Below, in pieces: positions 4,699 to 58,037 of a stretch of DNA of 64,000 nucleotides (within the stretch, counting starts at the first letter, position 1; every line of letters begins with the position of its first letter). A program made the translations under genes and the position numbers. This DNA comes from a virus. Location: positions 62,001 to 126,000 of IMG/VR virus record IMGVR_UViG_3300033273_000833. The stretch is one strand, 5' to 3'. The notes beneath the pieces are model-generated. The model ran no database searches and was not told where the DNA came from. It saw nothing but the letters and a program-made list of their open reading frames with translations.

Positions 4699-5062
4699 GG
4701 GCGTGTACTGGATTCGATTTAAATTGGATTAGTATACTGCAAGTAGGAGTTGCATCTGGCTCCTCAAAAAGGTGCAAACAATTACATGGCAACAAAAACC
4801 GTGTTAAAGCTTTCGGCCTTAAAGCTAAAAAGCTTGCCCTAGCAGCTTAGTTCTGCTACCTCGTAACCTTTGACGCAGATAAAAGGATTACGGGGCCATT
4901 AATCTGCAAAACAGAAAAAGTTTTCTTGCTTCACAAACTGCAAATAATTGAAACAAGAAGTTGGATGTTAATATCATAACTGTAAAAAAAATTAACTAAA
5001 CTTGTAGGCGTATATCTACAGAAAATTTAAAGACGCGGGTTCGACTCCCGCCACGTCCACCA
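4699..5062 (+). ncRNA. ssrA: tmRNA (one-piece), with encoded proteolysis tag
   Basis: The 5' GGGCGTG (4699-4705) pairs with CACGTCC (5052-5058), followed by A and an encoded CCA (5060-5062). The T arm with GGTTCGACTCCC sits just before. A tag frame runs from GGC 4788 to TAG 4848 and reads GNKNRVKAFGLKAKKLALAA. Its stop codon lies in the loop of a TAGCAG/CTGCTA hairpin (4840-4858), as in helix 5 of known tmRNAs, and the tag ends in the LALAA degradation signal. The resume point falls at nucleotide 90 of the RNA, as in E. coli. At 364 nt the length is normal. tmRNA rescues stalled ribosomes. The resume codon was chosen by position and frame. Confidence 0.93.
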
Positions 5063-6269: not shown

Positions 6270-8075
6270 TTAGAAATACTTTAACCATGTTTCACAAATT
6301 TTTAAATCTAGCTCTGTGATGATTTGTTTGTTAAATAGTTTTTGGTAAATGTTTCGCATTAGTTCTTTGTTGAAGTTTTTATCTATTGACTTTTGTCGAG
6401 GTAAAACATCTTCGCCCAACACATCTACAATAGTTTCGTTAGCCAAATACATGGGAACTTCCGACTCGAAGTCTTGCATCAAATCGTGTTCATTCCTTAG
6501 CTGTGTTACATTAGGTGAGGTGTAAGCCATGTTTTTATTGTTGTACTTCAAGAGGGTATTTGCTACGATTCCTTTTAATATATCACAATAACGAAAAGTT
6601 ACAGAACAAGGTATAAGTAAACCTAGAAAGAGGTTTGGATCTAACCAAAAAGTATTTTGAGTATTAAACGGACAGGTATTCTCATTGGATATAATTATTT
6701 TTTTGCCTTTTTCCCATACAACTGCATGATTGCAAACTAAACGAAAAATAGCATCAACATCTGGATCGTTTTCAACGAGACCATTAATTATGGCAACATC
6801 TTCTTTGTTTTTTGAATTGTCAAATTTAAAGTCTGGATGCGGGTTTTGTTTTATATTGGATAACGGGTAACCTCTTGGCCAAATCCAACTGTTATTGGTG
6901 AAGTATTTAAAAATATTGATCCACGAACTATTATTTTCTTTGATAGTTTGTACATTTTTATCGAGTTCAAGAACTGAGTCAAAGTTGTCGTGCGGTATGT
7001 TGTCATCATCAGTCTCGTATATAACCTCGTAACCTTTTTTAATAGCGTAAAGATAACCTAAGTTTTTACGACCATAATGGTTGTAGGGTATCAAATCACA
7101 CAATTCAGGAAACAATTTTTTTTGATTTTCAACATCCAAAAATATACAATCTTCATTTTTATATGTGCCTGGAGTTTTTAGATCACCCACGATGATTACA
7201 TCATATTCTGAATTGCTTATGTGTTTACGAATAGTTTCCGTAGGTTCATTAATGGTGGTTATTATGACGCATTTTTTCTTTTGAAAAATATCATTTAGTA
7301 AATCGAGTAGTTTTGGGTTTTCACCAAATTTAATTGGATGTAAAAATAAATCAAATTTTTTATTAAATCTGTTCTTTATATACGGTGGTTTAGAGGTGAG
7401 ATTTCTGGAACTCCACAGGACAGTTCCACTTATGTTATTATAGTTCTGTCGTTCAGGTTCAATATTCCTAATAATTGTTGGTATTGCTATTTCTAAAAAA
7501 ACACCATAATTTGCGAATAGTTGAAATAAATCAAAAATTTTGCTCGAAAGATATTTTTTTGGTAAATAAAAATAATCAGCAAATTCTTTACAATATTTAT
7601 TAATACCAAAGTCATGATATTCCGCATTTTTTTCTAGTTTAGATATTGCTTTTATGCCGTAAGGGCCGTGCCACCAGCCCCCTTTAAGTGCATCTAGTGC
7701 ATCTAGTGGTTTTATATTAAAACCGTGACCTGTAGCAGAGCAGGCCTCTGTATTGTAAATAATTTTTCCTGTGTCATATAAATTCAATATATTTGTGTTG
7801 ATTATGTTATCATCCATTGTATAGAATAGACCATCGCATTCGTTTATATCGTTCTTGTAATTATCGTACAAATGCTTAAAAATTTTATGAGCAAGGTATC
7901 CACGCTCTATATCAATATAGTTAACATCGTTGTGCAATTTTTCATCGGTATCTTTGGGTGTATCAGAGTATACAATAATTTTTTTAAAATGGCTTTTATA
8001 CAAATCGCAAATTTTTTGCCTGCTGTCTAAGCATTTGCTATAGTTGAATACTAATAGTAATATTGAATTTGTCAT
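6270..8075 (-). CDS. STELLO-type (DUF288-like) glycosyltransferase
   Basis: The 601-residue product has an N-terminal unknown half (~1-270). Its C-terminal half starts with CVIITTINEPT, continues with YDVIIVGDLKTPGTY, and has LIPYNHYGRKNLGYLYAIK and YETDDDNIP. The DDD/N cluster and the NLGYLYAI motif are typical of the STELLO/reversibly-glycosylated-protein-like GT-A fold, where the aspartates bind the metal of the sugar nucleotide. It is the last gene of the leftward glycan block, 16 bases after the preceding gene. Confidence 0.7.
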   Translation of the reverse strand: MTNSILLLVFNYSKCLDSRQKICDLYKSHFKKIIVYSDTPKDTDEKLHNDVNYIDIERGYLAHKIFKHLYDNYKNDINECDGLFYTMDDNIINTNILNLYDTGKIIYNTEACSATGHGFNIKPLDALDALKGGWWHGPYGIKAISKLEKNAEYHDFGINKYCKEFADYFYLPKKYLSSKIFDLFQLFANYGVFLEIAIPTIIRNIEPERQNYNNISGTVLWSSRNLTSKPPYIKNRFNKKFDLFLHPIKFGENPKLLDLLNDIFQKKKCVIITTINEPTETIRKHISNSEYDVIIVGDLKTPGTYKNEDCIFLDVENQKKLFPELCDLIPYNHYGRKNLGYLYAIKKGYEVIYETDDDNIPHDNFDSVLELDKNVQTIKENNSSWINIFKYFTNNSWIWPRGYPLSNIKQNPHPDFKFDNSKNKEDVAIINGLVENDPDVDAIFRLVCNHAVVWEKGKKIIISNENTCPFNTQNTFWLDPNLFLGLLIPCSVTFRYCDILKGIVANTLLKYNNKNMAYTSPNVTQLRNEHDLMQDFESEVPMYLANETIVDVLGEDVLPRQKSIDKNFNKELMRNIYQKLFNKQIITELDLKICETWLKYF

Positions 8076-8091
8076 TTTTTAAATTTCTTCT

Positions 8092-8847
8092 TCATTTAGG
8101 GGAATATTTACGTAAAAAAATGTATTCGGATGATTCTTTTGGTATGTTAGAGAATACTTGCGCCGCTGTCCTAGTTTGATCTATGTTACAATATATAAAT
8201 TGTTCATTGTCTATGTAATCAATACTATTGTATTTTAACGCATTTGCCCAATAATACTCGTCATGCAAAAAGTATTTAACACATTCATTTTTATCATGGG
8301 GAAGATACTTCTTGGCATAATCATCGTTAAAACCAACAAAAATATCGGATTTTAATATTTCAGGTGTTTTTAACTTATAAAAATCTTCTTTTGATATACA
8401 GAAAAACATATTTTGCTTGACCCATTCAACTTCACTAATTTTTGACTTAAATTTAGCAGTCGTTATACTATTGTATTTGCTTGAATTAAATTTAGCTTGT
8501 GATGTTGTTGGGTTTTTTTGTATTTTTATATTAGTATGTTTGTTATTATTTACAAACGATATAGATCGCCTTAGTGGTAGCATATCTCCCGACATTATGT
8601 ATACAACATCACACCCTTTATCAAATAAATCATGAAATAATAAGTTCGTCGCGACAACCAGGCTAGAATGCCCCCATTCGGTTGGTATAGTATTAATACA
8701 ATTTATTGGAAATGGTAATTTATTTTGCACCCTTCCTTTTGCATGCACAGATATTATCGTTTCATGTTTTATAGAATTAAAAAACGCATCAAGATGTGAT
8801 ACATTATGTATTTTATTATATACCATGAAGCCAAAACCAATTTTCAT
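8092..8847 (-). CDS. Core-2/I-branching (GT14)-like glycosyltransferase
   Basis: A 251-residue protein with the order seen in GT14 enzymes: early SVHAKGR, then WGHSSLVVATNLLFHDLF, YIMSGDMLPLR, MFFCISKEDF and a late DEYYWANAL. GT14 enzymes transfer GlcNAc or Xyl. The SGDMLP segment replaces the canonical SGxDxPL. The stop of the upstream gene overlaps its start by 4 bases, so translation is coupled. Confidence 0.7.
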   Translation of the reverse strand: MKIGFGFMVYNKIHNVSHLDAFFNSIKHETIISVHAKGRVQNKLPFPINCINTIPTEWGHSSLVVATNLLFHDLFDKGCDVVYIMSGDMLPLRRSISFVNNNKHTNIKIQKNPTTSQAKFNSSKYNSITTAKFKSKISEVEWVKQNMFFCISKEDFYKLKTPEILKSDIFVGFNDDYAKKYLPHDKNECVKYFLHDEYYWANALKYNSIDYIDNEQFIYCNIDQTRTAAQVFSNIPKESSEYIFLRKYSPK

Positions 8848-9521
8848 AACTTGTGGAGGTTAAAAAGTTGTGGATATTTTTCATGCATAATTGTTAAGAC
8901 CATTTCTTCATCATATATAATGAAATTATTATCAACAAATTGTAGGCATTCTATATATTTCTTTGTAAATTCAGGAATTATGTGTCTTGGGAGTTTTATA
9001 ACTTGAGCCAATATCTTTATGGGTGGTAATGTATTTTTTAGTAAACCTTTATATGGTTTATTTGGGAAGTTGTCTGATTTTGCATATTGATTGATGTAAC
9101 ACTTATTGCTATCACTGGAGGTTATTGACTGTAAATTTCTTGTCTTCACGCAATCAACCCACATTAAATAATCAGCATCTGTATAGTCTAAAATTTTTTC
9201 AAAAAGAAGAATTTTGCTTGTCCATATTGTAGCTAACTTTAAAAAAGCATTGGATTTAACGTGCCTCCCAAATTTGAAATAAACTGCATCTCGTGATTTG
9301 CAAAAATTAGTTAAGTTTTTAAGGTACGGCAAACTTGGAAGATTATTAAATTCCAAATCAATTTTATTGGAGAAGCCTACAACCTGATCTTGCGAACATA
9401 TAAAATAATCTAAATTTTTGTTTCGAGCATGTTTTATATGACCTTGTCTGTTTGAAAATTTTGGATTGTTTTCTACATGCCAGTAGGCGGAAAAGGTTGT
9501 TGTTTTTTTCATATTGATCAT
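8844..9521 (-). CDS. Probable GT-A glycosyltransferase-like protein
   Basis: A 225-residue protein with DADYLMWVDC (~114-123), which resembles the DxD-containing strand of GT-A enzymes of the HtrL/YibB kind. The start is taken at 9521, about 11 bases after GGAG; ATG 9512 (MKKTTTF) is an alternative. It sits between a sulfotransferase relic and the GT14-like gene in the same leftward operon. The assignment rests on one motif and on context. Confidence 0.45.
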   Translation of the reverse strand: MINMKKTTTFSAYWHVENNPKFSNRQGHIKHARNKNLDYFICSQDQVVGFSNKIDLEFNNLPSLPYLKNLTNFCKSRDAVYFKFGRHVKSNAFLKLATIWTSKILLFEKILDYTDADYLMWVDCVKTRNLQSITSSDSNKCYINQYAKSDNFPNKPYKGLLKNTLPPIKILAQVIKLPRHIIPEFTKKYIECLQFVDNNFIIYDEEMVLTIMHEKYPQLFNLHKL

Positions 9522-9526
9522 AATTA

Positions 9527-9688
9527 CTATTCTCCAAATTTGTAACCGAAATACTCAATGTGCGTACTACCCCCATATGGGTCTCCGTTGTACCCCGTGT
9601 CCGATCTTCCGAAGACAGCCTCCTCGACTGATTCTCCGCCACATTTTGCAAAATGCACAAATATAATTTTTTGTTTATGACAAATCAC
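9527..9688 (-). pseudogene. Collapsed sulfotransferase relic (internally deleted)
   Basis: A 53-codon frame opens with GTG at 9688. Its start (HKQKIIFVHFAKCGGESVEE) matches the PAPS-binding start of the neighbouring sulfotransferases (HKHKFIFIHIPKCGGSSIE). After a short linker it jumps straight to their shared C-terminus (HIEYFGYKFGE). About 140 residues are missing, including the RNPWDR core. Residues expected in the P loop are altered (P to A). It is still an open frame, so a mini-protein cannot be excluded, but it cannot be a working sulfotransferase. Confidence 0.8.
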
Positions 9689-9690
9689 TA

Positions 9691-10452
9691 TTATCTATGT
9701 TTGCGGTTTCCTAAGCCTGTAATATATTTCCTGTTTTTCTGTATATACAGATTATCATATATCCCTTTGGATTTGGAGATAACAGTGTTTTTATTATAAA
9801 TCCCAGCAATTCCGCTAAACGAGGATATTCCAGAAGGAAATAATATGTCGCATAATATCATGTCATTGATTGCAGTTAGCTCTGGTGTATTGCGATCATA
9901 TACATTTACTCTCATTCCATGAGTGTTAAGCTCCCTTAAATTTATATTTCCGTCAGTATGTATATTTATTGATAAGGGGGGATTTATGTAGTAGTGGATA
10001 TAATCTAAAATATTTTTTAGGTCTTCAGTAGAGCAAGCTCTATATCTAACTGGTTTACAGCCTTTATATTCCTCATTAGCAGTATCTCCTCTTCGCACAT
10101 GTATACAGATATTGGTCTGATTAACTTGTTGAAGAGTGTTTTCTAGAGGGGTGTAGTTTTTAATGATTGATTGCATAAATTTGCTACTAAAATCAGCAAA
10201 TAAGCCACGTTTGATAATTGGAGTATAATTAGCTTCACCGCTAAAGATGGTGATCTTATTTAATTCTTTCTCACAAATGTTATGAAATTTAGAGCCTAGG
10301 TTAAAGACAGACTCGTATGGATCCTCGAGTGGTGTGTGTATATATTCGAAGCCTTCTTGTTTAGCAAAGTAAGCGGTCCATAGTCTGCTATAAATTTGCA
10401 TACCAATCCTATCTGTTTTTTGACAGGTGATATATTTTTTTGCTTTTCTCAT
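9691..10452 (-). CDS. Fucosyltransferase-like protein (GT11-type HxRRGD)
   Basis: The 253-residue product has CIHVRRGD (~116-123), the donor-binding motif of alpha-1,2- and alpha-1,6-fucosyltransferases, after an N-terminal part (DRIGMQIYSRLWTAYFA) like the GxGNQLFQ start of GT11. The late region (LCDILFPSGISSFSGIAGIYN) matches the usual FSWWAA/SSFS motif region. Donor would be GDP-fucose or a related GDP sugar, which the phage could make through its gmd and fcl homologues. The acceptor is unknown. Confidence 0.65.
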   Translation of the reverse strand: MRKAKKYITCQKTDRIGMQIYSRLWTAYFAKQEGFEYIHTPLEDPYESVFNLGSKFHNICEKELNKITIFSGEANYTPIIKRGLFADFSSKFMQSIIKNYTPLENTLQQVNQTNICIHVRRGDTANEEYKGCKPVRYRACSTEDLKNILDYIHYYINPPLSINIHTDGNINLRELNTHGMRVNVYDRNTPELTAINDMILCDILFPSGISSFSGIAGIYNKNTVISKSKGIYDNLYIQKNRKYITGLGNRKHR

Positions 10453-10516
10453 TCAGTTAGTAATGTTTGCAAGTTATTTAAGCTGACGAATTCAATATTC
10501 TGGTTGTGGAATAAAT

Positions 10517-11122
10517 TTAATCTCCAAATTCATAATTAAAATACTCAATGTCTTTTGCATATTTTTCTGCAACTATTTGCTTCGTTTCTTCATCGTAATA
10601 TTCGGTGTAGTGTTTTTTGTTTCTCTTGTTCATATGTGGCAATTTCAATCCTTTCATATTCAAGTAATTACACACACACATAAAATTATTTTCAAAATTT
10701 TCAAATCTACCAACAAAATCAACAGCTATATTACCTTCATTATCTTTCAAGAAATCATATTGAGCAACAGAGTGAGATGGATCAAGGTGTATGGGCGATA
10801 GTAGAAACTTTTTTAAGCTTTGTTTTTTTGGTCCGCCGAAATAAAAATAATCTGATATGGCCCTGTCCCATGGGTTTCTAACAAAAGCAAAAGAAAAATA
10901 ATAATTCTTTAATTGTGGGTGAATTTTATAAACCTCACTGATTGTAAGGTGTTGAAGATATTTTCCTGTATACTCATCCCTGCCAAGCAATAATTGCTTG
11001 TCGCAAAAATTATTTGGGAATTTTTTTTTGTCCCATAAATTATAACCAAATGCAGTTTCAATACTAGAACCGCCGCACTTGGGTATATGAATGAAGATAA
11101 ATTTATGCTTATGGCTTATCAT
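10517..11122 (-). CDS. Carbohydrate-type sulfotransferase
   Basis: The 201-residue product starts HKHKFIFIHIPKCGGSSIE, the 5'-phosphosulfate-binding motif of Sulfotransfer_2 enzymes. It has FAFVRNPWDRAISDYFYF (~79-96), the 3'-phosphate-binding motif, and ends KDIEYFNYEFGD. These enzymes move sulfate from PAPS to sugar hydroxyls. It is a paralogue of 11787-12362. An APS-kinase-like gene heads the same operon and may supply PAPS. Confidence 0.85.
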   Translation of the reverse strand: MISHKHKFIFIHIPKCGGSSIETAFGYNLWDKKKFPNNFCDKQLLLGRDEYTGKYLQHLTISEVYKIHPQLKNYYFSFAFVRNPWDRAISDYFYFGGPKKQSLKKFLLSPIHLDPSHSVAQYDFLKDNEGNIAVDFVGRFENFENNFMCVCNYLNMKGLKLPHMNKRNKKHYTEYYDEETKQIVAEKYAKDIEYFNYEFGD

Positions 11123-11142
11123 TGTACTGAATAATATACACC

Positions 11143-11784
11143 TTATTTTAACCAGCTTCCATTCCAGTGGTGAACCGCATAAGCTTCAGGATGCGTTTTG
11201 GAAAAATCTTCTTCCCTACGAAACTTTTCTTGCCAATAGTAAGGGTATACAGTTTTCTTAAGAGAATCGCGACCATCTGGCATTCCTATTTCGTGTCCTA
11301 ATTTTTCGGTTATGTATGCTGGTCCATATTTATAATCAGAGTTTTCTTTATGGCCATGAGATTTTTTTCTCGAAGGTAGTCCGTCTATCAAGCGTTTTAC
11401 ATCTCTATTATGCTTGGAGGCTCCAAAAAAAGCTCCGCATATTTTTTTATGTTCTTGATGAAATAAAACAATTTCTTTTTGTTCAAAGAGAGGATTTATA
11501 TTTTTTAAGCATTCAAAGTCGGTATCAATATACAATCCTCCAAACTGATAAAGGATTTCAAACCTTAAGATATCAGATTTTTCAGAAAAATTTTCGCAAC
11601 TCTCTAGAATTTCAGGGTAGGTAATTTTTAAATTATCTTTTATTTTTTTATCGTCCCAAAGAATATGTATCCATTCGGGGTTTTTACTTTTCCATGTACC
11701 TTGCCAGTATAACTCTTGTTTTGATAATGAACTTTCGCCCATATGTATTTGATGAAATATTTTTGGTATTATTGAATTTCTCAT
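11143..11784 (-). CDS. Glycosyltransferase family 32-like protein
   Basis: A 213-residue protein with IPKIFHQIHMG at the start, SEKSDILRFEILYQFGGLYI then DTDFEC (the DXD of GT32/OCH1-like enzymes), and a final HHWNGSW. This order is typical of polysaccharide-type GT32 proteins using mannose or galactose. It lies between the two intact sulfotransferases in the leftward operon. Confidence 0.85.
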   Translation of the reverse strand: MRNSIIPKIFHQIHMGESSLSKQELYWQGTWKSKNPEWIHILWDDKKIKDNLKITYPEILESCENFSEKSDILRFEILYQFGGLYIDTDFECLKNINPLFEQKEIVLFHQEHKKICGAFFGASKHNRDVKRLIDGLPSRKKSHGHKENSDYKYGPAYITEKLGHEIGMPDGRDSLKKTVYPYYWQEKFRREEDFSKTHPEAYAVHHWNGSWLK

Positions 11785-11786
11785 TT

Positions 11787-12362
11787 TTATTCTCCAAATT
11801 TATACCCAAAATACTCAATGTCCTTTGCGTATTTTTCCGCAACAAGTTGACGAGTTTCATCATCGTAATATTTTGTGTAATGGGTGGTTTCTGTTTTGTA
11901 ATTGTGTGGTAGTGTTTTTCCAGAAATACCTATATTTCTACAAACATTATTGAAGTCTTCGTGTAAATTTTCAAATCTTCCTATAAAATCCATTTGTTCA
12001 AGTGGTTTTAATATTTTCATGTAATCGTATCTGTGATATGGATCTCCTACATTGCTACTAAAAAATTTTTTTAAAAAACATTTAAAAGTTGTTCCGTGAT
12101 AAAATTTTTTGACTTTTTTTAGTGGGTATTTGTGTGTTGAATTTGTAAACCATTTAAACTCTGAAACCATTTTATCGTAAGGGTTTCTTACAAACGCAAA
12201 CTTATAATAATTTTTATACTTATCCAACTTCAGAACCTCTGCATGGGTCGTGTGAGTGTGACCATTAAAAAAGAATTCAAAATCTTGCAAGTATCTTTCC
12301 ATGCTTGTGCCCGCACACTTCGGTATATGAATAAATACAGTTTTATGTTTATCACTTATCAT
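11787..12362 (-). CDS. Carbohydrate-type sulfotransferase
   Basis: The 191-residue product starts MISDKHKTVFIHIPKCAGTS (PAPS-binding loop), has FAFVRNPYDKMVSEF (3'-phosphate motif), and ends KDIEYFGYKFGE. It is a paralogue of 10517-11122 and of the relic at 9527-9688. The start is set at ATG 12362, matching the paralogue; a TTG at 12371 would add three residues and overlap the upstream stop. Confidence 0.85.
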   Translation of the reverse strand: MISDKHKTVFIHIPKCAGTSMERYLQDFEFFFNGHTHTTHAEVLKLDKYKNYYKFAFVRNPYDKMVSEFKWFTNSTHKYPLKKVKKFYHGTTFKCFLKKFFSSNVGDPYHRYDYMKILKPLEQMDFIGRFENLHEDFNNVCRNIGISGKTLPHNYKTETTHYTKYYDDETRQLVAEKYAKDIEYFGYKFGE

Positions 12363-12367
12363 TTTTA

Positions 12368-13183
12368 TCAAATTTTGTTTTCTTTCTTCATAAGAGTTTC
12401 GTCCTTTACCTCTGGATGGTCACTGCTTAATAAATGTTGCAATGTATAATCTGAATACCAATTATTTAATTTTATTTTTTTTTCACAGTTTTCTTTGGAT
12501 ATTATTCTATAATGGTAGCACAACAAAAATCCAGTCTCAATATCTACCTCACGTAAATTATCATAAAACGGATTTAATTCACTTGGTTGGTTGCCAACTC
12601 CGTCGCGAATTTGCTCTGGAGTTCCCATGTGTTCACATGGATGATGGTCTTTTATCTTTGTAAAATATGTTGGTTTAAAAATACATTTAACTTCAATTTT
12701 TTCATAACGACATCTAAACTTGTGAATTTTGTGTGGATGTTTTTTATCATGATTCCACCTATAAGTTATTTCATTTAAAATGCTTTTTGGATTTTTTTTC
12801 AAGGAATTGCAAGACATCATCACCCAAGGTACTTTTATGCAATGGGCGTCCTTGAAAGTTGTTTGTAATTCATCCCTAATAGTTTTATTGAGATTTTTCT
12901 TTGTAACTATAAACTCATCAATGTCCACATATATTACCCACTCGTAATTATCCTTAAGTTTATCCACCCAATTTAAAATATAATTGTCCTTTGTAATTTC
13001 CTTTTCAAAGAAAATGTTTATGTTTTCTTTATTTAACAATTCATCATATATGGATTTATCTTCGGAATCGTCATCTATTATATTAATTTCGTCAACTCCT
13101 TGACTTAGATAATGATTGCAAAACTCTGCAACAAAAAACTCATCTTTACAACGAGCTATTAATCCTAAAAATTTTTTGTGCAT
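12368..13183 (-). CDS. Glycosyltransferase family 92/GT2-like protein
   Basis: A 271-residue GT-A protein starting with FLGLIARCKDEFFVAEFCNH, then INIIDDDSEDKS, WVIYVDIDEFI (the DXD) and later PHKIHKFRCRYE. The RxKNE-like start and the DIDEF motif define the GT92/DUF23-type glycosyltransferases. It follows the APS-kinase fusion by six bases and leads the alternating glycosyltransferase/sulfotransferase series. Confidence 0.8.
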   Translation of the reverse strand: MHKKFLGLIARCKDEFFVAEFCNHYLSQGVDEINIIDDDSEDKSIYDELLNKENINIFFEKEITKDNYILNWVDKLKDNYEWVIYVDIDEFIVTKKNLNKTIRDELQTTFKDAHCIKVPWVMMSCNSLKKNPKSILNEITYRWNHDKKHPHKIHKFRCRYEKIEVKCIFKPTYFTKIKDHHPCEHMGTPEQIRDGVGNQPSELNPFYDNLREVDIETGFLLCYHYRIISKENCEKKIKLNNWYSDYTLQHLLSSDHPEVKDETLMKKENKI

Positions 13184-13189
13184 TGACTC

Positions 13190-13993
13190 TTATTCAGGTC
13201 TTTTGCCTAAAGGTTTTCCATCTTGACCAATTTCTCCAGCCCTAATTTTGGTTGCAGAAACATTTTGAAGCTCTTTACTTAATTCAAGCTGCTCAATGTT
13301 ATATCCTACGCCTCTACCATAAAATACATCTGTAATATTTGGAAGCTCAACAACTTTAATTTTATTCCCAAACTCAATGCATGCAGAATGAATTTCTGCT
13401 TTAACTTTTTCAAAATTATATGGATTCTTTTCGTCAATTCCGCCGACATCTCTTAAAGCAATGCAGCATTGCCCAGTTCTTTTAATCGCTTCAGCAACTA
13501 ATGTTTTATGGCCAACATGAAAAGGTTGATACCTCCCAATTAATAAAGCTGTTGGAGCTTGATTATCCCAGGATTCTGTTTCATTTAATTTATTCAATAC
13601 TCTTTCAACCCATTCTTCTGGAGATCCGTCAGTTAGTCTTACGTCGTAATTCAAAGGTCTTTCAAACATTTTATTAGTGTCTTCGTATCTACCTTCCATA
13701 ATCCTATCGACCCATACAACAAAATCAGCAGCAAATGCTTTTCTTGTTTCTTGGGTAGGGCATACAAAATCGGCGACAGAGTAACCTCCGCCCATTGAAG
13801 ACCAAGAACATAGTTTACCCATTCTTTCGGCATGCTTAATTCTATCTTCTTCCGAAAACCCTAGCTCTGAATATATATCTTGCCTAACGGCATCAGCGTT
13901 AAACCAGGCTGCGTTAATTTTTTTTACTAAAATCTCAGCCAACGTTGTTTTGCCAGATCCTGGGAGCCCCATAATCAAAATTTTTCTTTTCAT
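13190..13993 (-). CDS. APS kinase-like/nucleotidyltransferase fusion protein
   Basis: The N-terminal ~145 residues are a P-loop kinase: GLPGSGKTTLAE (Walker A), FNADAVRQDI, then RKAFAADFVVWVDRI, as in adenylylsulfate kinases (CysC). The C-terminal ~115 residues are a separate cytidylyltransferase-like fold with LIGRYQPFHVGHKTLV (HxGH motif) and NVSATKIRAG (ISSTxIR-like). The pair could convert sulfate or APS towards PAPS for the sulfotransferases downstream, although the C-terminal domain looks more like an NMN/pantetheine-type adenylyltransferase than a classical ATP sulfurylase. It heads the leftward glycan operon. Confidence 0.75.
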   Translation of the reverse strand: MKRKILIMGLPGSGKTTLAEILVKKINAAWFNADAVRQDIYSELGFSEEDRIKHAERMGKLCSWSSMGGGYSVADFVCPTQETRKAFAADFVVWVDRIMEGRYEDTNKMFERPLNYDVRLTDGSPEEWVERVLNKLNETESWDNQAPTALLIGRYQPFHVGHKTLVAEAIKRTGQCCIALRDVGGIDEKNPYNFEKVKAEIHSACIEFGNKIKVVELPNITDVFYGRGVGYNIEQLELSKELQNVSATKIRAGEIGQDGKPLGKRPE

Positions 13994-14015: not shown

Positions 14016-14345
14016 TTATTTTATCTTCTTATTTATTAAACATGCTAGACTAGGCACGGAAAACATACTAAAGCCAGCAAAAATCATATTTAAATTAAAA
14101 AACCAACAACAAAACAAAGAAGCAAGCAAAGACAACCAAGTGCCATAACATAAGGGACAGCTCAATAGTTCTCCCAGCTTACCCCAATTATCAATTATAT
14201 AATCATGCAAATCATCTAATGTATATATTTTTTCTTTTATAAACAATGACAATATATATACTTTTAAATTAGTATACTCCAATACGGCAATAATATTAGA
14301 AACAAACAAAATGCAAGCTAAATAAATTAATAAATAATTAATCAT
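14016..14345 (-). CDS. Membrane protein with CPLCYGTW motif (DUF1360-like)
   Basis: A 109-residue protein with an N-terminal membrane helix (YLLIYLACILFVSNIIAVL), a soluble segment, then LLSCPLCYGTWLSLLAS and a second hydrophobic stretch. The CPxCxGxW motif at a membrane boundary resembles DUF1360 proteins. Function unknown. ATG 14345 overlaps the end of the upstream small gene by 8 bases, so the pair is probably coupled. Confidence 0.65.
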   Translation of the reverse strand: MINYLLIYLACILFVSNIIAVLEYTNLKVYILSLFIKEKIYTLDDLHDYIIDNWGKLGELLSCPLCYGTWLSLLASLFCCWFFNLNMIFAGFSMFSVPSLACLINKKIK

Positions 14346-14562
14346 CTTGAATGCGAGGAAGAATGAACGATGTGTATTTCCTACGCACACTAGCTTTTCT
14401 GCACGAAGAACATCCTCCAGGTTTATTCACTTCTGCCAAGTAATCTTTTTTCATTTGCTGACAACCATCAAAGTTTATTTCTTGACAAGTTTGCTCGGGC
14501 GTTTTATTTAAATCCATAAATATTCTTATGAGATTCATTTGGGCTGGTGTTTTTGGATTCAT
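14338..14562 (-). CDS. Small cysteine-motif protein, unknown
   Basis: A 74-residue protein with four Cys, including a CSSC pair near residue 50, basic at the C-terminal end, with no membrane segment. ATG 14562 is preferred over a TTG at 14574. Its start region lies back-to-back with the strong rightward promoter at 14568-14596. Confidence 0.6.
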   Translation of the reverse strand: MNPKTPAQMNLIRIFMDLNKTPEQTCQEINFDGCQQMKKDYLAEVNKPGGCSSCRKASVRRKYTSFILPRIQDD

Positions 14563-14567
14563 TTTTC

Positions 14568-14596
14568 TTGACAAATTTGATTACATATATTATACT
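14568..14596 (+). promoter_or_regulatory. Sigma70-type promoter, leaderless arrangement
   Basis: TTGACA (14568-14573), 17-base spacer, TATACT (14591-14596), then 6 bases to ATG 14603. It lies inside the short gap between two divergent genes. Confidence 0.85.
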
Positions 14597-14602
14597 TATA
14601 AT

Positions 14603-15142
14603 ATGAAAAATATTCTAGAAAAAACTAAAACTTATCTGGTTGGCCACATGCAATACATTAGTGGGAGGAACTGGCGAGAAGAAGTTACTCAAAAGCTTTC
14701 TGATATTAACATTACATGCTTCGACCCTTATAAAAAACCCTTTATTAAAGATGTCGAAGAAGATGAGGTCTCAAGACAAGAAATGGAAACTTGGATGAAA
14801 ACCAAGCAGTACGACAGAGTAACGGAAAGAATGAAAATGGTAAGAGCTTATGACCTAAATTTAGTTGATCGTAGCGATTTTATCATCGCTCATCTAGTTC
14901 CTAGCGTTGCATCTTGGGGTAGTGCCGAAGAAATTGTTACTGCGGTAAGAATGAAAAAACCTATCTTTATCAGCATGGAAGGCGGTAAGTCCCAAACTCC
15001 ACTCTGGATGCTAGGAATGCTTCCTCATAAATACATTTACAATTCAGTAGAAGAAATAGTAGATATGCTTTTTGCTATCAATGAAGGGTCAAAAACTATA
15101 GACTCAGATCGCTGGCGCCTATTAAGACATGAATTTAGATAG
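14603..15142 (+). CDS. Nucleoside 2-deoxyribosyltransferase-like protein
   Basis: A 179-residue Rossmann-like protein: KTYLVGHMQYISGRNWREEV at the start, DLNLVDRSDFIIAHLV in the middle, then SWGSAEEIVTAVRMKKPIF. The glutamate in GSAEEI matches the nucleophile of nucleoside deoxyribosyltransferases, which swap bases on deoxyribose during salvage. Start fixed by the promoter: ATG 14603 is 6 bases from the -10. Its 3' end overlaps the convergent gene at 15135 by 8 bases. Confidence 0.65.
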   Translation: MKNILEKTKTYLVGHMQYISGRNWREEVTQKLSDINITCFDPYKKPFIKDVEEDEVSRQEMETWMKTKQYDRVTERMKMVRAYDLNLVDRSDFIIAHLVPSVASWGSAEEIVTAVRMKKPIFISMEGGKSQTPLWMLGMLPHKYIYNSVEEIVDMLFAINEGSKTIDSDRWRLLRHEFR

Positions 15143-26388: not shown

Positions 26389-27489
26389 ATGAATACTTAT
26401 GGTTTACTGAGCTCAAGCTCAACTTTGTCACAATCCTCTACTAGTAACGCTTTTAGAAGCTTATCCAAAAAAGCTTTTAATTCTAAGTCTCTTGATGAAG
26501 CCATAGCTGAGCTCAGTGAAATCATAATGCATAATGCGGTGTGCGCGCAAAACCATCTCAAATTTTGTGCTCAAAACAACATTAAGTTATATTCTATATT
26601 TAATGACTTAATTCCTTTGTTGCACGATGACGCAATACCATGTTCTATTAAAGACTTAAACGACTATGAGTCTATTATTAAAGAATTAAAGAAAATTGGA
26701 ATTATAGCAAGAAAATTTAATATTAAAATTTGTGTCGAACTAAGGAAACAAGTATTCTTGTCAGGTACAGACAATACTATTAAAAAATCTTTAAATTTAA
26801 TTAATTTATGGTCTACAATTTTTGACTTGTTCGAACTAGACCAAGGGCAAGAATCTCCAATTATTGTGCAAATTAATAATTCTGTAAATGAAGCCGAGGA
26901 ACTAAAACTAAAAAACGTGGTTGATAAATTTTACTCATCTTTTGAAAACCTACCCGAATCTTCTCAATCAAGAGTCGTCGTAACCAATGAAAAAGAAGGT
27001 TGCTGGAACTGTCAAAATCTATTTAAATGGTTGCATCTATACTGTGGCGGAGAATATGGCAAATTCTTTTCTTTATCTTACAATAATTTAAATCATAAAT
27101 TAAATTCCTCTATAGTTGGCGGTTCTGAGGTTTCTGATAAGCAAAATGTTCAAGCTTTTAAACATACTTGGGCTAAAAACGTAACTCCCACTTTCTTTTG
27201 GGACGAAGAACCTCTTGATGATTCATTTTCTAAAGAAATTCCTGATTTTGGAGAGAGCGTTAATTGGGTATGCTGTGGTGTAGAAAGTGATAAGAATATT
27301 TTTGGAATGCAAGGCGTTGTTGTTGAAGATGAGAATCTTGACATTAGTAGCTTTGATGAATTACTTATTGACGTCGAAGTTGATGATAGTGATATTAATG
27401 AAAGCGAAATAGATCTTGCTCATAAGAAAATTAGAGAAGCTTTAGAGTCAAAAGGGGGCAAAGACTTCAATTCTATATACGGTTTTTAG
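26389..27489 (+). CDS. UvsE (UV endonuclease)-like paralogue lacking metal ligands
   Basis: A 366-residue protein that aligns along its length with the intact UvsE at 58038-59048: RSLSKKAFNSKSLDEAIAEL against RTMTRKRFNDL..., IGIIARKFNIKI against VGLIAKRFNISI. The metal-binding residues are replaced: SHPDQF to ELRKQVF, NIHVNY to IVQINN, IENEDKG to VTNEKEG, CYDNLHD to SYNNLNH, FHWSEG to FFWDEE. An acidic C-terminal extension (~80 residues) is added. It is probably not a nuclease but kept as an intact frame. A GTGTAAA element lies 10 bases before its ATG. Confidence 0.82.
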   Translation: MNTYGLLSSSSTLSQSSTSNAFRSLSKKAFNSKSLDEAIAELSEIIMHNAVCAQNHLKFCAQNNIKLYSIFNDLIPLLHDDAIPCSIKDLNDYESIIKELKKIGIIARKFNIKICVELRKQVFLSGTDNTIKKSLNLINLWSTIFDLFELDQGQESPIIVQINNSVNEAEELKLKNVVDKFYSSFENLPESSQSRVVVTNEKEGCWNCQNLFKWLHLYCGGEYGKFFSLSYNNLNHKLNSSIVGGSEVSDKQNVQAFKHTWAKNVTPTFFWDEEPLDDSFSKEIPDFGESVNWVCCGVESDKNIFGMQGVVVEDENLDISSFDELLIDVEVDDSDINESEIDLAHKKIREALESKGGKDFNSIYGF

Positions 27490-31003: not shown

Positions 31004-31549
31004 ATGGAATTTCTGGTTTTTACATGTATAATTATACTAATAGCAAGTTTATACTTTCAATCTCAACACAAAAATAACGCAAATTTATTATCATCAGAAA
31101 ATAAATTACTTAAAAATAGAGAGGATCAATTAAATAGAACAATATCTGACTTAAATGCATCTTTAAAAAGAGAGCAAGAAATTATCAAAGAGCGTAAAAC
31201 TGAATTAGATAAAAAAGAAAAGCATATTGTCTCAACTTTAAATGATTTAGAAATACAATTAGCTAAAGAAAAAGAAGCGAAGAAAAAAGTAACATCACAG
31301 AAAAAGAGTAGCGAAGTTAGACTCGGTCATATCGCAGAAACTCTGGCTCCTTTTTTAGATCAATTTGAATTCGATCCAGAGGCTTGTACATTTCTAGGAA
31401 AACCTATAGACTATATATCGTTTGGAGAAGAAGAAATTACATTTATAGAAGTTAAAAGCGGAAATAGTCAATTAAACCAAAATCAGAGAAGAGTAAGAGA
31501 TTTAGTGAAAGACAAAAAAGTAAGTTGGAAAGAAATCAGAATAAAATAA
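31004..31549 (+). CDS. Membrane-anchored Holliday-junction-resolvase-related endonuclease
   Basis: A 181-residue protein: N-terminal membrane helix (FLVFTCIIILIASLYF), a coiled coil of charged residues (~25-105), then RLGHIAETLAPFLDQF and EITFIEVKSGNSQLNQNQRR, then VRDLVKDKKVSWKEIRI. The VEVKSG...LxxNQRRVRD pattern is that of the Holliday-junction-resolvase-related secreted endonucleases (COG4741). The E-x-K is the catalytic pair. Confidence 0.78.
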   Translation: MEFLVFTCIIILIASLYFQSQHKNNANLLSSENKLLKNREDQLNRTISDLNASLKREQEIIKERKTELDKKEKHIVSTLNDLEIQLAKEKEAKKKVTSQKKSSEVRLGHIAETLAPFLDQFEFDPEACTFLGKPIDYISFGEEEITFIEVKSGNSQLNQNQRRVRDLVKDKKVSWKEIRIK

Positions 31550-32570: not shown

Positions 32571-33326
32571 ATGCAAGAATCATTAGCTATATTAAGTTCT
32601 TATTTTTCTAAAAAAAAGCACCCCAATGACCCTGCGGATGCTCATGTAGTCGGAAGAACTGTTGATGGTAAAGTTAAAAACGACGAAATATCCTATATTA
32701 AACCTTGGTATGATTCTATTAATAAATTAAACCTTAAAGGATTCATATTTCACGACAATCTTTCGGAATACTTTGTAGAGCAGTATACAACAGAAAATGT
32801 AACTTTTATTAAAGTTGAAGATTCGATATACTCTAACAATGATTATAGATTTTTCTGTTTTAACAATTTTTTGCAAGAGAATAAATTCAATTACGTTTTT
32901 CATTCTGATGCATCAGATGTTACGGTAGCTCAAAATCCAATTAAATTAATTAAAAATAATCCAGAAATTTCATATTTCGCCTGTAAAGACAGCATTAAAC
33001 TCAAACAGTTTGGCGATTACTTAAGCGTTCATGATAAATTTAATTTTGAAGATAAAATGATGTTCATGCTGAACATGGATTCATGGGATTTAATTAATAT
33101 GGGGGTTATCGGGGGAGCTTACGAAGATATGTCTAATTTTTATTCTAGATTCGTTGAAATTAGACAATCTATGGGTGTTCCAGAATTTAATTCTGATATG
33201 TGGTTATGCCAGTACTTACTCAGGTCTCAATTCAAAGATAAAAAGTTTATTATGGGTGAGCCTGTTTGTAGTGAATTTAAACAATACCAAAACGAAAGAG
33301 AAGATGTCTATTTCATCCACAAGTAA
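32571..33326 (+). CDS. Glycosyltransferase-like protein, first gene of second glycan block
   Basis: A 251-residue protein with NYVFHSDASDVTVAQNP, a DxxD-type strand like the DXD of GT-A enzymes, then LNMDSWDLINMGVIGGAYED. This resembles galactosyl-/glycosyltransferases acting on short acceptors, but the family is uncertain. TATAAT (32560-32565) lies 5 bases before its ATG, with no good -35. Confidence 0.5.
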   Translation: MQESLAILSSYFSKKKHPNDPADAHVVGRTVDGKVKNDEISYIKPWYDSINKLNLKGFIFHDNLSEYFVEQYTTENVTFIKVEDSIYSNNDYRFFCFNNFLQENKFNYVFHSDASDVTVAQNPIKLIKNNPEISYFACKDSIKLKQFGDYLSVHDKFNFEDKMMFMLNMDSWDLINMGVIGGAYEDMSNFYSRFVEIRQSMGVPEFNSDMWLCQYLLRSQFKDKKFIMGEPVCSEFKQYQNEREDVYFIHK

Positions 33327-34032
33327 AATTACGGTTTATTGCTCTACCTATAATTCAATTAAATGGATTGAAGGTTATTTAAATAATATCAACTCTCAGA
33401 TTTGTGAAGCCTTTGAATTATTTTTCATAGACGCAGGCTCAACAGATGGCTCTCTTGAGAAAATTAAAAATTTTAAATTCAGCCCACATATTAATGTGTC
33501 TATTTTTGAACCTGGATTTTTATCCATTTACGGAGCATGGAATTTAGCAGTCGCTAAAGCTAGTACTCCATATGTTATGAATTTCAATACAGACGATAGA
33601 CTTAATTTTTGCGCCCTTTCAACCTATCATAGGTATATCGAAGAGTTCCCAGAGATAGATTTATTTTACGGAGTTCACAATTTCGTATCTGAAATTGGCG
33701 GAACCAACCTACCTATAGGTGAATATTGGAAAAACTTAACTGACTCCCTACTATCTGAATCAGAGAAAAAATTAATGTTTACAATTAATCCCTGTGGACC
33801 ATTTCCTTTAGTCAAAAAAGCCTCCCTGATGGACGCTGGTGAATTTGATGAAAAATATTTTTCTTCTGCGGATTATGACATGTGGTTGCGAATGTTTTCG
33901 ATGGGCATGAGATTTAAAAGAACTCAAGATATCATTGGTGACTTTTTATATAGGCCTGATTCAGCCTCTCAAGCTAAAATCAAAGAGTCAGAATCGCACG
34001 ATAAAGAAATACAATCAAAATATAAAACATGA
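33304..34032 (+). CDS. Glycosyltransferase family 2
   Basis: A 242-residue GT-A protein: ITVYCSTYNSIKWIEGYLNN, then FIDAGSTDGSLEKI, WNLAVAKASTPYVMNFNTDD (DXD), and later SADYDMWLRM. All are textbook GT2 motifs. Start ATG 33304, overlapping the preceding gene by 23 bases. Confidence 0.88.
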   Translation: MSISSTSKITVYCSTYNSIKWIEGYLNNINSQICEAFELFFIDAGSTDGSLEKIKNFKFSPHINVSIFEPGFLSIYGAWNLAVAKASTPYVMNFNTDDRLNFCALSTYHRYIEEFPEIDLFYGVHNFVSEIGGTNLPIGEYWKNLTDSLLSESEKKLMFTINPCGPFPLVKKASLMDAGEFDEKYFSSADYDMWLRMFSMGMRFKRTQDIIGDFLYRPDSASQAKIKESESHDKEIQSKYKT

Positions 34033-34685
34033 AAAAAGTAGTATCATTTTCTCTATGGGGCGATTGCGATCACTATACATATGGAGCCATTGAAAATGCA
34101 AAAAGTATTGGGCGCGAATTTTATTCAGACTGGGAAAGCTGGTTCTATACGCACCCATCAGTAGGTCAAGATATTCAAGAAAAAATAAAAGAAGCTGGGG
34201 GTAAAATTATTATGTCAGAAAGCTCTAAAGACTTTTCTATGCTTTTTGAAAGATTCAAGCCAATGTCTGATCCTAATGTATCAATTTTCGCCAGCAGAGA
34301 TTGCGATTCTAGAGTTTCAGATAAAGAATATCAAGCCGTTCTGGAATGGGAAAATAGCGACTTTCAATTTCATGCAATGCGCGACCACTTCCATCATCAT
34401 CTTTACGTCATGGGCGGACTATGGGGAGCAAAAACTGAAGGATTAATCAATACATCCCAAGCATACCGACAAATGATTGATTCATCTTTTGGAACCCATT
34501 ATAACGACGATCAAAGATCATTGCATTTTTTATACAAAGAATATAGCAAAAATTTTTTGGAGCACGACGATAGACAAAGACATAAAGGAATAAAATTCCC
34601 TAATCATAAACCCTTTAAATATGGCTCCTTCATAGGAGAGCGCATAACTTCTAATAATCAAGTCGGACCAATAGAAAGATGGTGA
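34029..34685 (+). CDS. Glycosyltransferase-like protein
   Basis: A 218-residue protein with SIFASRDCDSRVS, a plausible DCD acidic metal-binding motif, then HLYVMGGLWGAKTEG. The order fits small GT-A enzymes that act on capsule or O-antigen. Overlaps neighbours by 4 and 7 bases. The exact family is unknown. Confidence 0.5.
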   Translation: MKKVVSFSLWGDCDHYTYGAIENAKSIGREFYSDWESWFYTHPSVGQDIQEKIKEAGGKIIMSESSKDFSMLFERFKPMSDPNVSIFASRDCDSRVSDKEYQAVLEWENSDFQFHAMRDHFHHHLYVMGGLWGAKTEGLINTSQAYRQMIDSSFGTHYNDDQRSLHFLYKEYSKNFLEHDDRQRHKGIKFPNHKPFKYGSFIGERITSNNQVGPIERW

Positions 34686-35362
34686 ACCACAATAAAGACA
34701 TTTTATTCAGATCCCACCTAGGGCTTGGAGATCAAATATCTTGCTGTGGCATTGTTCACTATCTTAGAATTGAACTTCAAAAGAAAATACATGTACTAAC
34801 TAAAACTCGGAATGTGCAAAATATATCTTTTTTATACAAGGATTACGAAGACATTGAAGTCGTAGAGATACCAGGAATAAATGAAGATCAAGAATCCAAT
34901 CAAATATCAAAAGATTTAAATTTAAATGTAATTAGAACGTTAATACCGCATGGCAGACATCTTTCAGATATATACTGGGACAAAGCTTTTTATGACCTCT
35001 TAAATTTAGACTACAATATAAAATATACACACTGGTCATCTCCTAAGCTTAATGAGCGGCATATAATTGAAAAATACTGCCCAAAAGAAGATTTCGCCTT
35101 CGTTTTTGATGATGAGCGCAGAGGCTTTACATTTCAAGCTTCAACTAACCTACAAGTAGTAAAAAATATACCAGACTTGAATATTTTTGAAATGGAGCCT
35201 ATAATAAAAAGAGCTAAAGAGCTTCATATAATGAATGGCGGCCTACTCTGCCTAATTGAAATGTTAGATATACCAAAAGAAAACCAAAAAGCATTTTTTT
35301 ACCCGATTAGGGATAATTTAAATTTCAGAAATAAAGAAAAATACAAAATAATTTCTACATGA
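34679..35362 (+). CDS. GT9-like/unknown glycan protein
   Basis: A 227-residue protein starting DILFRSHLGLGDQISCCGIV, like the N-terminal loop of ADP-heptose:LPS transferases (GDxxxxxP), then alternating strands and helices. The C-terminal donor domain is short. It may bind a nucleotide sugar. It is coupled to the formyltransferase gene by a 4-base overlap. Confidence 0.45.
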   Translation: MVNHNKDILFRSHLGLGDQISCCGIVHYLRIELQKKIHVLTKTRNVQNISFLYKDYEDIEVVEIPGINEDQESNQISKDLNLNVIRTLIPHGRHLSDIYWDKAFYDLLNLDYNIKYTHWSSPKLNERHIIEKYCPKEDFAFVFDDERRGFTFQASTNLQVVKNIPDLNIFEMEPIIKRAKELHIMNGGLLCLIEMLDIPKENQKAFFYPIRDNLNFRNKEKYKIIST

Positions 35363-36060: not shown

Positions 36061-36106
36061 ATTTTAAAATTATGGAAATAAATAAATTTAACTATATAAT
36101 AATATT

Positions 36107-36415: not shown

Positions 36416-36445
36416 ACAAATATCAGTCGAATTTAGAGGCAGACA

Positions 36446-37579: not shown

Positions 37580-37588
37580 TGAAATCCA

Positions 37589-38906: not shown

Positions 38907-39959
38907 ATGAAGAAAATTATCATAACAGGAGTAACAGGTCAAGACGGTAGCCACATGGTAGACTATCTCTTAAAATTATTTAACGAAGAGTTTGGTAAAA
39001 CAGACTACATGATATACGGATCGATAAGAAGGTTAAGTGTCAAGAATCATGAAAACATTTTACATCTAGAAGATGAGCCTAGATTTCAGTTAATTGACAT
39101 GGATCTAAATGATCCTCACAGTATTCGTGACGTGGTCATCGATATTCAGCCTGATTACTTTATTAACTTTGCGGCTCAATCCTTTGTGGCAGGAAGCTGG
39201 AAATATCCAATACAAACGTGGGACACTGATGCAGATGCCGTTCTTCATATTTTAGAATCAATTCGTAGATTTGCACCAAATTGTAGATTTTATAATGCTG
39301 GATCATCTGAAGAATTTGGAGATGTCATTTATAGCCCTCAAGACGAAAAGCATCCACTTCGCCCTCAATCTCCTTATGGAGCTGCAAAATGTGGTGCTAG
39401 GCATATAGTCAGAGTCTATAGAGAATCTTATGGTCTATATGCAGTTCAAGGCTGGTTATTTAATCATGAAGGAACTCGCAGAGGACTTGACTTTGTAACT
39501 CGAAAAATTACTCATACTATCGCTAGAATTAAAATTGCTCTTGAAAATAACAAACCCCTACCAATTCTTAAACTTGGAAACTTAGAGGCTAAAAGAGACT
39601 GGAGTGACTCAGAAGATTTTATGGAGGGAGTATGGTTAATGCTAAATCAAGACGCTCCTAAAAATTATGTTCTAGGAAGCGGTGAAATGTTTACTGTTAG
39701 GGAGTTTTTAAATATTTGCCTTAAATATGCTGGTATTGAGTTTGAAACTAGAGGCTCTAATGATTCCGAAGAATATTATACAAAAGAAGGTGCTCTATTT
39801 TTTCAGGTAGATCCTAAATTTTATCGACCTGCAGAAGTTCATGAGCTGTGTGGAGATCCATCTCTTGCTGAAAAAGAATTAGGCTGGGTAAGAAAAACTT
39901 CATTCGAAGCCTTAGTAAAAAAGATGTACGACAATGACTACCAATTACTCAATCACTAA
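38907..39959 (+). CDS. gmd: GDP-mannose 4,6-dehydratase
   Basis: A 350-residue extended SDR: ITGVTGQDGSHMVDYLLKLF (NAD loop), NFAAQSFVAGSWKYP, GSSEEFGDV, SPYGAAKCGARHIVRVYRES (catalytic Tyr-Lys), and FNHEGTRRGLDFVTRKI. It converts GDP-mannose to GDP-4-keto-6-deoxymannose. TATAAT (38893-38898) lies 8 bases upstream of the ATG, within a GTGTAAT element. It overlaps the next gene by 26 bases. Confidence 0.93.
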   Translation: MKKIIITGVTGQDGSHMVDYLLKLFNEEFGKTDYMIYGSIRRLSVKNHENILHLEDEPRFQLIDMDLNDPHSIRDVVIDIQPDYFINFAAQSFVAGSWKYPIQTWDTDADAVLHILESIRRFAPNCRFYNAGSSEEFGDVIYSPQDEKHPLRPQSPYGAAKCGARHIVRVYRESYGLYAVQGWLFNHEGTRRGLDFVTRKITHTIARIKIALENNKPLPILKLGNLEAKRDWSDSEDFMEGVWLMLNQDAPKNYVLGSGEMFTVREFLNICLKYAGIEFETRGSNDSEEYYTKEGALFFQVDPKFYRPAEVHELCGDPSLAEKELGWVRKTSFEALVKKMYDNDYQLLNH

Positions 39960-40908
39960 AGATTCAAAAATTTTCATCGCAGGCCACAGAGGAATGGTCG
40001 GCTCTGCGACATTAGATTGTCTTAAAGCTCAAGGCTATCAAAACATCGTAACTAAAAACAGGAAAGAGCTTGACTTAACAAACCAAAAAGATGTTGATTC
40101 TTTTTTTGAAAAGGAACAAATCAACATTGTTATTCTATGCGCGGCAAAAGTTGGAGGGATACTCGCCAACAATACTTATAGAGGAGATTTCCTTTATGAT
40201 AATTTACTCATTAGTGCAAACATTATTAAAGCCGCCCGAGATTGCTCTGTAGGTAAATTAATCAATCTAGGCTCGTCTTGCATTTATCCTAAAAATTCGG
40301 ATTTACCAATTAAAGAAGAAAGTCTTTTGAGCGGATTTCTAGAGTCTACAAACGAGCCTTATGCTATAGCTAAAATTGCGGGATTAAAATTATGCGAAGC
40401 ATTCTACCACCAATACTCTAGTAATTTTTACTCAATTATGCCATGCAATTTATACGGCGAAAGAGATAATTTTGACCTCAAAAGCTCTCACGTACTTCCT
40501 GCGTTTATTAACAAATTCCATACTGCAAAAGAAAGTGATTTAGATTTTGTTAAAATTTGGGGCTCAGGAAAACCTAAAAGAGAATTTTTGCATGTTAGGG
40601 ATTTGGCTAACGCTATACTGTTTTGCTTGGAGAATGTTGAAGCTGAAGACATATACAAGTACAATATTTCTCACTTGAATTGCGGTTCATCTCAAGAAGT
40701 TTCTATCCTAGAGTTAGCCAACTTGATTAAAAAAACTGTAAAATATAAGGGCGAAATCAGATTCGATAAATCGAAGCCAGATGGAACTTTTAGAAAAGTT
40801 ATGAACAATAATAGAATCTTCAAATTAGGCTTTTTACCTCAGATATCTCTCGAGGATGGGATTAAACAAACATATAATTGGTATATAAAAAATAATGAAA
40901 AAAAATAA
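39934..40908 (+). CDS. fcl: GDP-fucose synthase (WcaG/Fcl)
   Basis: A 324-residue SDR: IFIAGHRGMVGSATLDCLK, AAKVGGILANN, NLGSSCIYPK, EPYAIAKIAGLKLCEAFYHQ (catalytic Tyr-Lys), and MPCNLYGERDNF. These are hallmarks of GDP-4-keto-6-deoxymannose epimerase/reductase, which makes GDP-L-fucose from the product of Gmd. Coupled to gmd by overlap. Confidence 0.92.
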   Translation: MTTNYSITKDSKIFIAGHRGMVGSATLDCLKAQGYQNIVTKNRKELDLTNQKDVDSFFEKEQINIVILCAAKVGGILANNTYRGDFLYDNLLISANIIKAARDCSVGKLINLGSSCIYPKNSDLPIKEESLLSGFLESTNEPYAIAKIAGLKLCEAFYHQYSSNFYSIMPCNLYGERDNFDLKSSHVLPAFINKFHTAKESDLDFVKIWGSGKPKREFLHVRDLANAILFCLENVEAEDIYKYNISHLNCGSSQEVSILELANLIKKTVKYKGEIRFDKSKPDGTFRKVMNNNRIFKLGFLPQISLEDGIKQTYNWYIKNNEKK

Positions 40909-44895: not shown

Positions 44896-44916
44896 ATTTA
44901 TGTATACACAAATTGT

Positions 44917-44944: not shown

Positions 44945-44950
44945 ATTATT

Positions 44951-51290: not shown

Positions 51291-51311
51291 TGGTGTAATG
51301 CTTTGTGTACT

Positions 51312-58031: not shown

Positions 58032-58037
58032 TATATC

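Follow-up and report, generated by a model that had tools for sequence, protein, structure and literature searches.

A predicted sulfotransferase and glycosyltransferase locus in a large marine phage and its relatives

Introduction

On the minus strand of the virus record IMGVR_UViG_3300033273_000833, positions 6270-13993 of the stretch analyzed here hold nine intact genes and one relic in the list of open reading frames (ORFs), tightly packed so that neighbours overlap by 4 nt or are 2-64 nt apart. The stretch, referred to below as the window, is 64,000 nucleotides long and covers positions 62001-126000 of a record of 203,067 bases. Along this leftward unit, the order is an adenosine 5'-phosphosulfate (APS)-kinase-like/adenylyltransferase fusion, a GT92-like glycosyltransferase (GT), a sulfotransferase (ST), a GT32, a second ST, a GT11-like gene, an ST relic, the gene at 8844-9521, a GT14, and a STELLO-like gene; an initial annotation had given the same ORFs in the same order, and the ORF list agrees with it. 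The prediction that this block builds a sulfated glycan is well supported by the gene families and their arrangement.

Phage glycosyltransferases and virion glycosylation are already known. Phage sulfotransferases have been noted before, with a function described as 'unclear' (PMC10580990), and cysC of large phages has been interpreted as sulfur assimilation (PMC10914622). In a search that covered part of the literature, no description was found of phage clusters with multiple STs linked to GTs.

Sulfotransferases and glycosyltransferases of the block

ST1 and ST2 match the Sulfotransfer_2 profile over its full length, at 68.9 and 69.0 bits against a curated cut-off of 22. Both contain IHIPKC(A/G)G(T/S)S, the 5' phosphosulfate loop, and FVRNP......S, the 3' phosphate site, that is, the binding site for 3'-phosphoadenosine 5'-phosphosulfate (PAPS). 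Across an alignment of 14 ST members, R62 and S70 are invariant and the loop lysine is present in nearly all; in the Sulfotransfer_2 family the lysine, arginine, and serine of the PAPS site have catalytic roles. Both enzymes are predicted, from their family, to perform PAPS-dependent sulfation of carbohydrates. The phage STs share the full-length profile and PAPS-site motifs with the PF03567 carbohydrate sulfotransferases and PHROG 3347 ('Galactose-3-O-sulfotransferase'), but these forms are short (194-201 aa) and have fewer than half of their residues in common, so that the acceptor cannot be deduced from the PHROG name. The relic translates as MICHKQKIIFVHFAKCGGESVEEAVFGRSDTGYNGDPYGGSTHIEYFGYKFGE, with ends that resemble an ST and no central part. 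Recombination through conserved ST ends was considered and set aside: among 208 STs, codon identity at identical residues is 0.42 at the N end, 0.49 in the middle, and 0.53 at the C end, a difference judged too small for claiming end shuffling.

Among the GTs, the GT32 and GT92 genes exceed their family cut-offs directly. The GT14 gene at 8092-8847 has no Pfam match over threshold itself, and its label in the initial annotation is borne out by the PF02485 matches of its relatives. The gene at 9691-10452 lies below the GT11 cut-off (PF01531, 14.2 bits vs 23.9), that at 6270-8075 below the STELLO cut-off (PF03385, 20.8 bits vs 27.8), and the profile search gave no Pfam family match for 8844-9521. 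The family labels first given to the fusion, the GT92-like gene, both STs, and the GT32 were thus recovered with Pfam or PHROG profiles, and those of the GT11-like, STELLO-like, and 8844-9521 genes stand less firmly. All features are collected in Table 1.

Table 1. Genes of the block and associated features in the window
Feature	Position	Strand	Evidence
Fusion enzyme	13190..13993	-	APS-kinase-like P-loop kinase, ~aa 1-140; NMN-adenylyltransferase-like nucleotidyltransferase, ~aa 147-255
Glycosyltransferase, GT2/GT92-like	12368..13183	-	PF13704 1.9e-12; PF01697 1.3e-7; DID motif
Sulfotransferase 1 (ST1)	11787..12371	-	PF03567 9.7e-19; phrog_3347 7e-23; conserved PAPS-site positions
Glycosyltransferase, GT32-like	11143..11784	-	PF04488 6.7e-16; DTD motif
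Sulfotransferase 2 (ST2)	10517..11122	-	PF03567 9.2e-19; phrog_3347 6e-23
Probable fucosyltransferase-like, GT11-type	9691..10452	-	HVRRGD motif; PF01531 0.025; phrog_2644 glycosyltransferase 0.0014
ST relic	9527..9688	-	53 codons; N-terminal and C-terminal ST ends joined in frame, middle lost
Possible glycosyltransferase	8844..9521	-	DAD motif; homologue L039:12356-13009 adjoins STs
Glycosyltransferase, GT14 (core-2/I-branching)	8092..8847	-	relatives match PF02485, 5.3e-28 to 1.5e-10
STELLO-like probable glycosyltransferase	6270..8075	-	PF03385 1.9e-4; L111 homologue PF03385 8.6e-4
Small membrane protein	14016..14390	-	ORF; two hydrophobic segments; 22 nt gap, upstream in the block's unit
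GDP-mannose 4,6-dehydratase-like (Gmd)	38907..39959	+	PF16363 7e-102; TIGR01472 310.5 bits vs cut-off 415
GDP-L-fucose synthase-like (Fcl)	39934..40908	+	NF047922 432.8 bits vs cut-off 500

ST-GT islands in related phages

Similar islands are common in related phages. PF03567 STs occur in 24 of the 32 records of the closer group, with up to 11 per record, and are usually packed against GTs; among records of at least 90 kb, the window's own included, 15 of 16 carry PF03567 (mean 5.6). Of 244 ST neighbours in the sampled islands, 239 share the strand of the ST, and the median gap is 2 nt. The neighbours include members of the GT2, GT10, GT25, GT32, GT61, GT90, GT92, Fringe-like, and galactosyltransferase families, as well as methyltransferases and GDP-mannose dehydratase. 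The alternation of GTs and STs described in the initial annotation holds for this block; as 52 of 236 close ST neighbours are another ST, strict alternation is no rule among the relatives.

Some relatives join the two activities in a single chain, namely GT14-ST (L109:777-2165), ST-GT25 (L130:9234-10562), and ST-GT25-ST (L160:8004-9944). These proteins are the strongest indication of GTs and STs acting on one product, and together with the packing across many related phages they uphold the earlier proposal of a sulfated oligosaccharide. Tandem-ST frames were also hinted at by a genome search, and ORF calls confirmed none, save the one ST-GT25-ST protein.

The nearest sampled relatives of the block genes are scattered over different records, with 32-64% identity in the pairs measured, whereas the fusion enzyme is 70-90% identical within the close group; the block therefore turns over faster than the fusion. 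A search that used the window gene at 31004-31549 to mark the clade gave too few loci. An alternative is that the cluster consists of transient host-derived genes that are decaying and have no maintained function. The ST relic and the differing gene content of relatives would fit decay, but the reading frames are intact and tightly packed, nonsynonymous polymorphism (pN) is below synonymous polymorphism (pS) in every pair tested by pairwise comparison, and STs recur in nearly all large related records. We consider decay very unlikely.

Fucose genes were also part of the initial annotation, which placed them at 39-41 kb. Homologues do lie at 38.9-40.9 kb: the Gmd-like and Fcl-like genes are best matched by the models of those families, both under the strict equivalog cut-offs; they are real homologues and support the proposed fucose supply. 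Because of these two genes and the GT11-like gene in the block, a fucose-containing chain is plausible. More sugar genes are found outside the block at 32571-38851 and 48375-50049, namely GT2, DegT aminotransferase, formyltransferase, GT61, and a further GT11-like gene.

The fusion enzyme at the head of the unit

The fusion enzyme belongs to a known phage family, phrog_10255, which spans its length (3.5e-52), and Pfam matches PF01583 in the kinase half (4.7e-12) and PF01467 (1.5e-5). In an alignment-based AlphaFold model (pLDDT 84.7), all 50 of the 50 PDB fold matches listed are APS kinases or APS-kinase-containing enzymes, the best being 7yq1 (template modelling score, target, 0.71), and the top match in a viral structure library is a Ralstonia phage protein named APS kinase. 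The kinase half resembles APS kinases, not ribosylnicotinamide kinases, in both sequence and fold. It shares with APS kinase (CysC; PF01583) the fold, the P-loop, GF..R, and F.CP, and has NADxVR in place of DGDNVR.

Several observations argue against a role in PAPS formation. The TIGR00455 (apsK) score is 42.3 bits against a cut-off of 138.7 and covers residues 5-86 only; the family alignment contains no lid motif of the KGLYxKAR type, which we take to define the APS kinase lid; and the change from DGD to NAD replaces the first Asp by Asn. The proximity of fusion and ST genes is not significant (8 within 3 kb vs 5.5 expected, p = 0.16), and of the other viral records with STs, 37 in number, 34 lack any APS-kinase-like gene that scores over the cut-off. 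In four Casjensviridae phages, the fusion follows another gene with an 8 nt overlap, and there is no PF03567 ST.

The second half has a different affinity. It is nearest to the nicotinamide mononucleotide adenylyltransferase (NMNAT) 2qjt (1.4e-8), NCBIfam NMNAT models match it too, and the NMNAT signature of GR.QP(F/W)H.GH and ISxTxxR type is conserved in a 42-member alignment, where the form ISATKIR is seen. The ATP sulfurylase part of 2gks scores 2.3 bits against this half, which does not qualify as an ATP sulfurylase domain. Like PAPS synthetase (APS kinase plus ATP sulfurylase), the fusion joins a kinase to an adenylyltransferase, with an NMNAT-like second half instead. It shares GR.QPFH.GH, ISATKIR, and the NMNAT match with NadR and NMNAT-Nudix enzymes, but its kinase is N-terminal and APS-kinase-like, and its NMNAT half is short.

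A scan of viral contigs gave 138 relatives of the fusion, of which 80 were kept. Many of the distant phage loci have a DUF2061 gene at the 3' end of the fusion or just past it (Pfam-confirmed in one). In bacteria, CysD, CysN, or APS kinase occurs within 6 kb at 44 of 80 DUF2061 loci, and near 29 of the 55 loci of at least 10 kb. This small membrane protein family is part of a Mesorhizobium sulfation operon, with the order nodBCI-ST-DUF2061-cysD-cysN on a plasmid (L216:4049-8296). A role of DUF2061 in sulfate activation is possible from this context.

An ST is the next gene after the fusion in L058-L061, and in L052-L054 one lies two genes from it; the ST calls beside the fusion in L056 and L081 were weak, did not exceed the Pfam cut-off, and were left out of the count. 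The fusion occurs in five of 50,697 phage records and an ST like ST1 in two, and both occur only in the Stenotrophomonas phage DLP6, a coincidence with a chance of ~2e-4; this phage has one ST, and the two genes are ~90 kb apart. In records selected by an unrelated gene, dCMP (deoxycytidine monophosphate) deaminase, STs are present in 3 of the 4 records with the fusion and in 11 of the 30 without it, which is not significant (p = 0.18). The clade found through the fusion, with STs in 25 of 33, gives p = 0.002, but this value is confounded by relatedness. No PAPS reductase was found in the record carrying the window.

The fusion might instead serve nicotinamide adenine dinucleotide (NAD) or nucleotide salvage, its place at the head of the unit being accidental, and this would be compatible with a sulfated glycan. 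Besides the NMNAT match, the distance from the apsK cut-off, and the non-significant ST proximity, the neighbours speak for salvage. In the Stenotrophomonas phage Bhz60 (L091:7559-8735), a NADAR gene (PF08719 4.1e-26) overlaps the fusion gene by 8 nt, and the three other ST-free Casjensviridae phages show the same gene arrangement, with NADAR identity tested in Bhz60 only. A nucleoside-deoxyribosyltransferase-like gene lies at most four genes from the fusion in 13 relatives. In the window, such a gene is found at 14528-15142, just under Pfam cut-offs and 73-86% identical among relatives. Against salvage stand the uniform fold matches to APS kinases, the DUF2061 context in phages and bacteria, the STs directly after the fusion in L058-L061, and DLP6. 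We regard salvage as possible, somewhat short of an even chance, and we give roughly even chances to a PAPS-related activity of the fusion, judged from sequence and the structural model. The initial proposal that the first gene supplies PAPS is thus plausible, with fold and DUF2061 context on one side and cut-off, lid, and NMNAT-like half on the other. Since STs in most phages do not need the fusion enzyme, host PAPS would be the default supply.

Acceptor of the predicted glycan

The block enzymes have no predicted transmembrane (TM) segment, and among the scanned ORFs of the whole record none has five or more. The record also lacks PF01943 (flippase), PF02397 (priming transferase), and PF04932 (Wzy_C ligase/polymerase), the three export and initiation families searched. 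Because of these absences, an acceptor in the cytosol, for example a structural protein, is favoured, and we would place the glycan on a virion protein rather than on the cell surface.

The same enzymes could act on a host surface polysaccharide or lipid-linked glycan, exported by the host, and in this way alter the receptor and block superinfection. It is established, and summarized in PMC12619734, that phages change surface glycans of the host with glycosyltransferases, the GT families found here serve capsules and lipopolysaccharide as well, and the leftward gene at 14016-14390 has two hydrophobic segments. The missing TM proteins and export families count against a surface acceptor, and sugar changes late in the lytic cycle would be of limited use. 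It is an unlikely reading, though one to be taken seriously.

A further alternative is that phage DNA, and not a protein glycan, is the target that the GTs and STs hypermodify. Phage DNA glycosylation is known, and a viromics paper proposes nucleotide glycosylation and sulfation roles (PMC10829341). The absence of PF00303 (thymidylate synthase/hydroxymethylase) from the record weakens this explanation, and the branching and fucose genes point to an oligosaccharide. Known members of GT14, GT32, GT92, and the carbohydrate-type PF03567 are sugar-on-sugar enzymes. DNA as the target therefore seems highly improbable.

Other features of the window

The genes at 42263-46243 encode a PSCyt2/PSD1 (DUF1549/DUF1553) protein and, after it, a DUF1501 protein. 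Such pairs are known mainly from Planctomycetota and Verrucomicrobiota, and the pair is a possible clue to the host; no relative was found among the 50,697 phage records, and DUF1501 homologues lie a few genes from the fusion enzyme in 8 relatives. The window further contains a complete transfer-messenger RNA gene (4699-5062) with the tag GNKNRVKAFGLKAKKLALAA, and a macro-domain protein (60417-60899; 22.3 bits vs a Pfam cut-off of 22). Two UvsE-like (UV damage endonuclease) genes (26389-27489 and 58020-59048) and two small SpeD-like (S-adenosylmethionine decarboxylase) genes (51303-51701 and 53155-53559) were judged by reading the sequences.

Proposed mechanism and comparison with known systems

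We infer a mechanism, including the enzyme activities, the sugar identities, a one-chain product, PAPS supply by the fusion, and the acceptor, in which large marine phages have a variable sulfoglycan locus and the block is one copy of it. Soluble glycosyltransferases would assemble a short branched oligosaccharide from nucleotide sugars in the cytosol of the infected cell, with GDP-fucose coming partly from the phage's own Gmd and Fcl. Soluble sulfotransferases would then add sulfate from PAPS, which host metabolism can supply and whose amount the APS-kinase-like fusion may boost. The acceptor would most likely be a phage structural protein, giving a virion with a negatively charged glycan, and related phages would come to differ in their coats as ST and GT genes are gained, lost, or decay. 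Two points weigh against this proposal: three of the GT calls have a weak family match or none, and for export the phage could borrow flippases, priming enzymes, and ligases from its host. Taken as a whole, with a cytosolic product most likely attached to a structural protein, we give it an even chance.

A bolder form holds that in large marine phages this is a fast-turning-over locus in the manner of bacterial capsule or O-antigen loci, coating virions with varied sulfated chains and fed by a fusion whose kinase half 3'-phosphorylates an adenosine monophosphate (AMP)-linked product, either APS or another AMP conjugate, made by the NMNAT-like half. This is speculative, and we hold it to be rather doubtful. 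The clusters nevertheless tie STs to glycosyltransferases, in some cases within single chains, and suggest that sulfate goes onto a glycan in this phage group. If this is true, a new class of phage surface, the sulfated virion glycan, would have to be recognized, and views of adsorption and of particle charge in seawater would change.

The nearest phage precedent is the glycosylation of mycobacteriophage virions, which is understood to involve fewer enzymes. There, phage GTs decorate capsid and tail proteins (Freeman et al. 2023, as cited in PMC12619734), and sulfation is not mentioned in that article's summary of the work. Phage-encoded GTs are common to both systems. The rhizobial Nod-factor sulfation cluster, an ST with CysD/CysN, likewise has an ST beside PAPS-forming genes and sugar-chain enzymes; it differs in that its product is a bacterial signal molecule that is exported, and in having true ATP sulfurylase genes.

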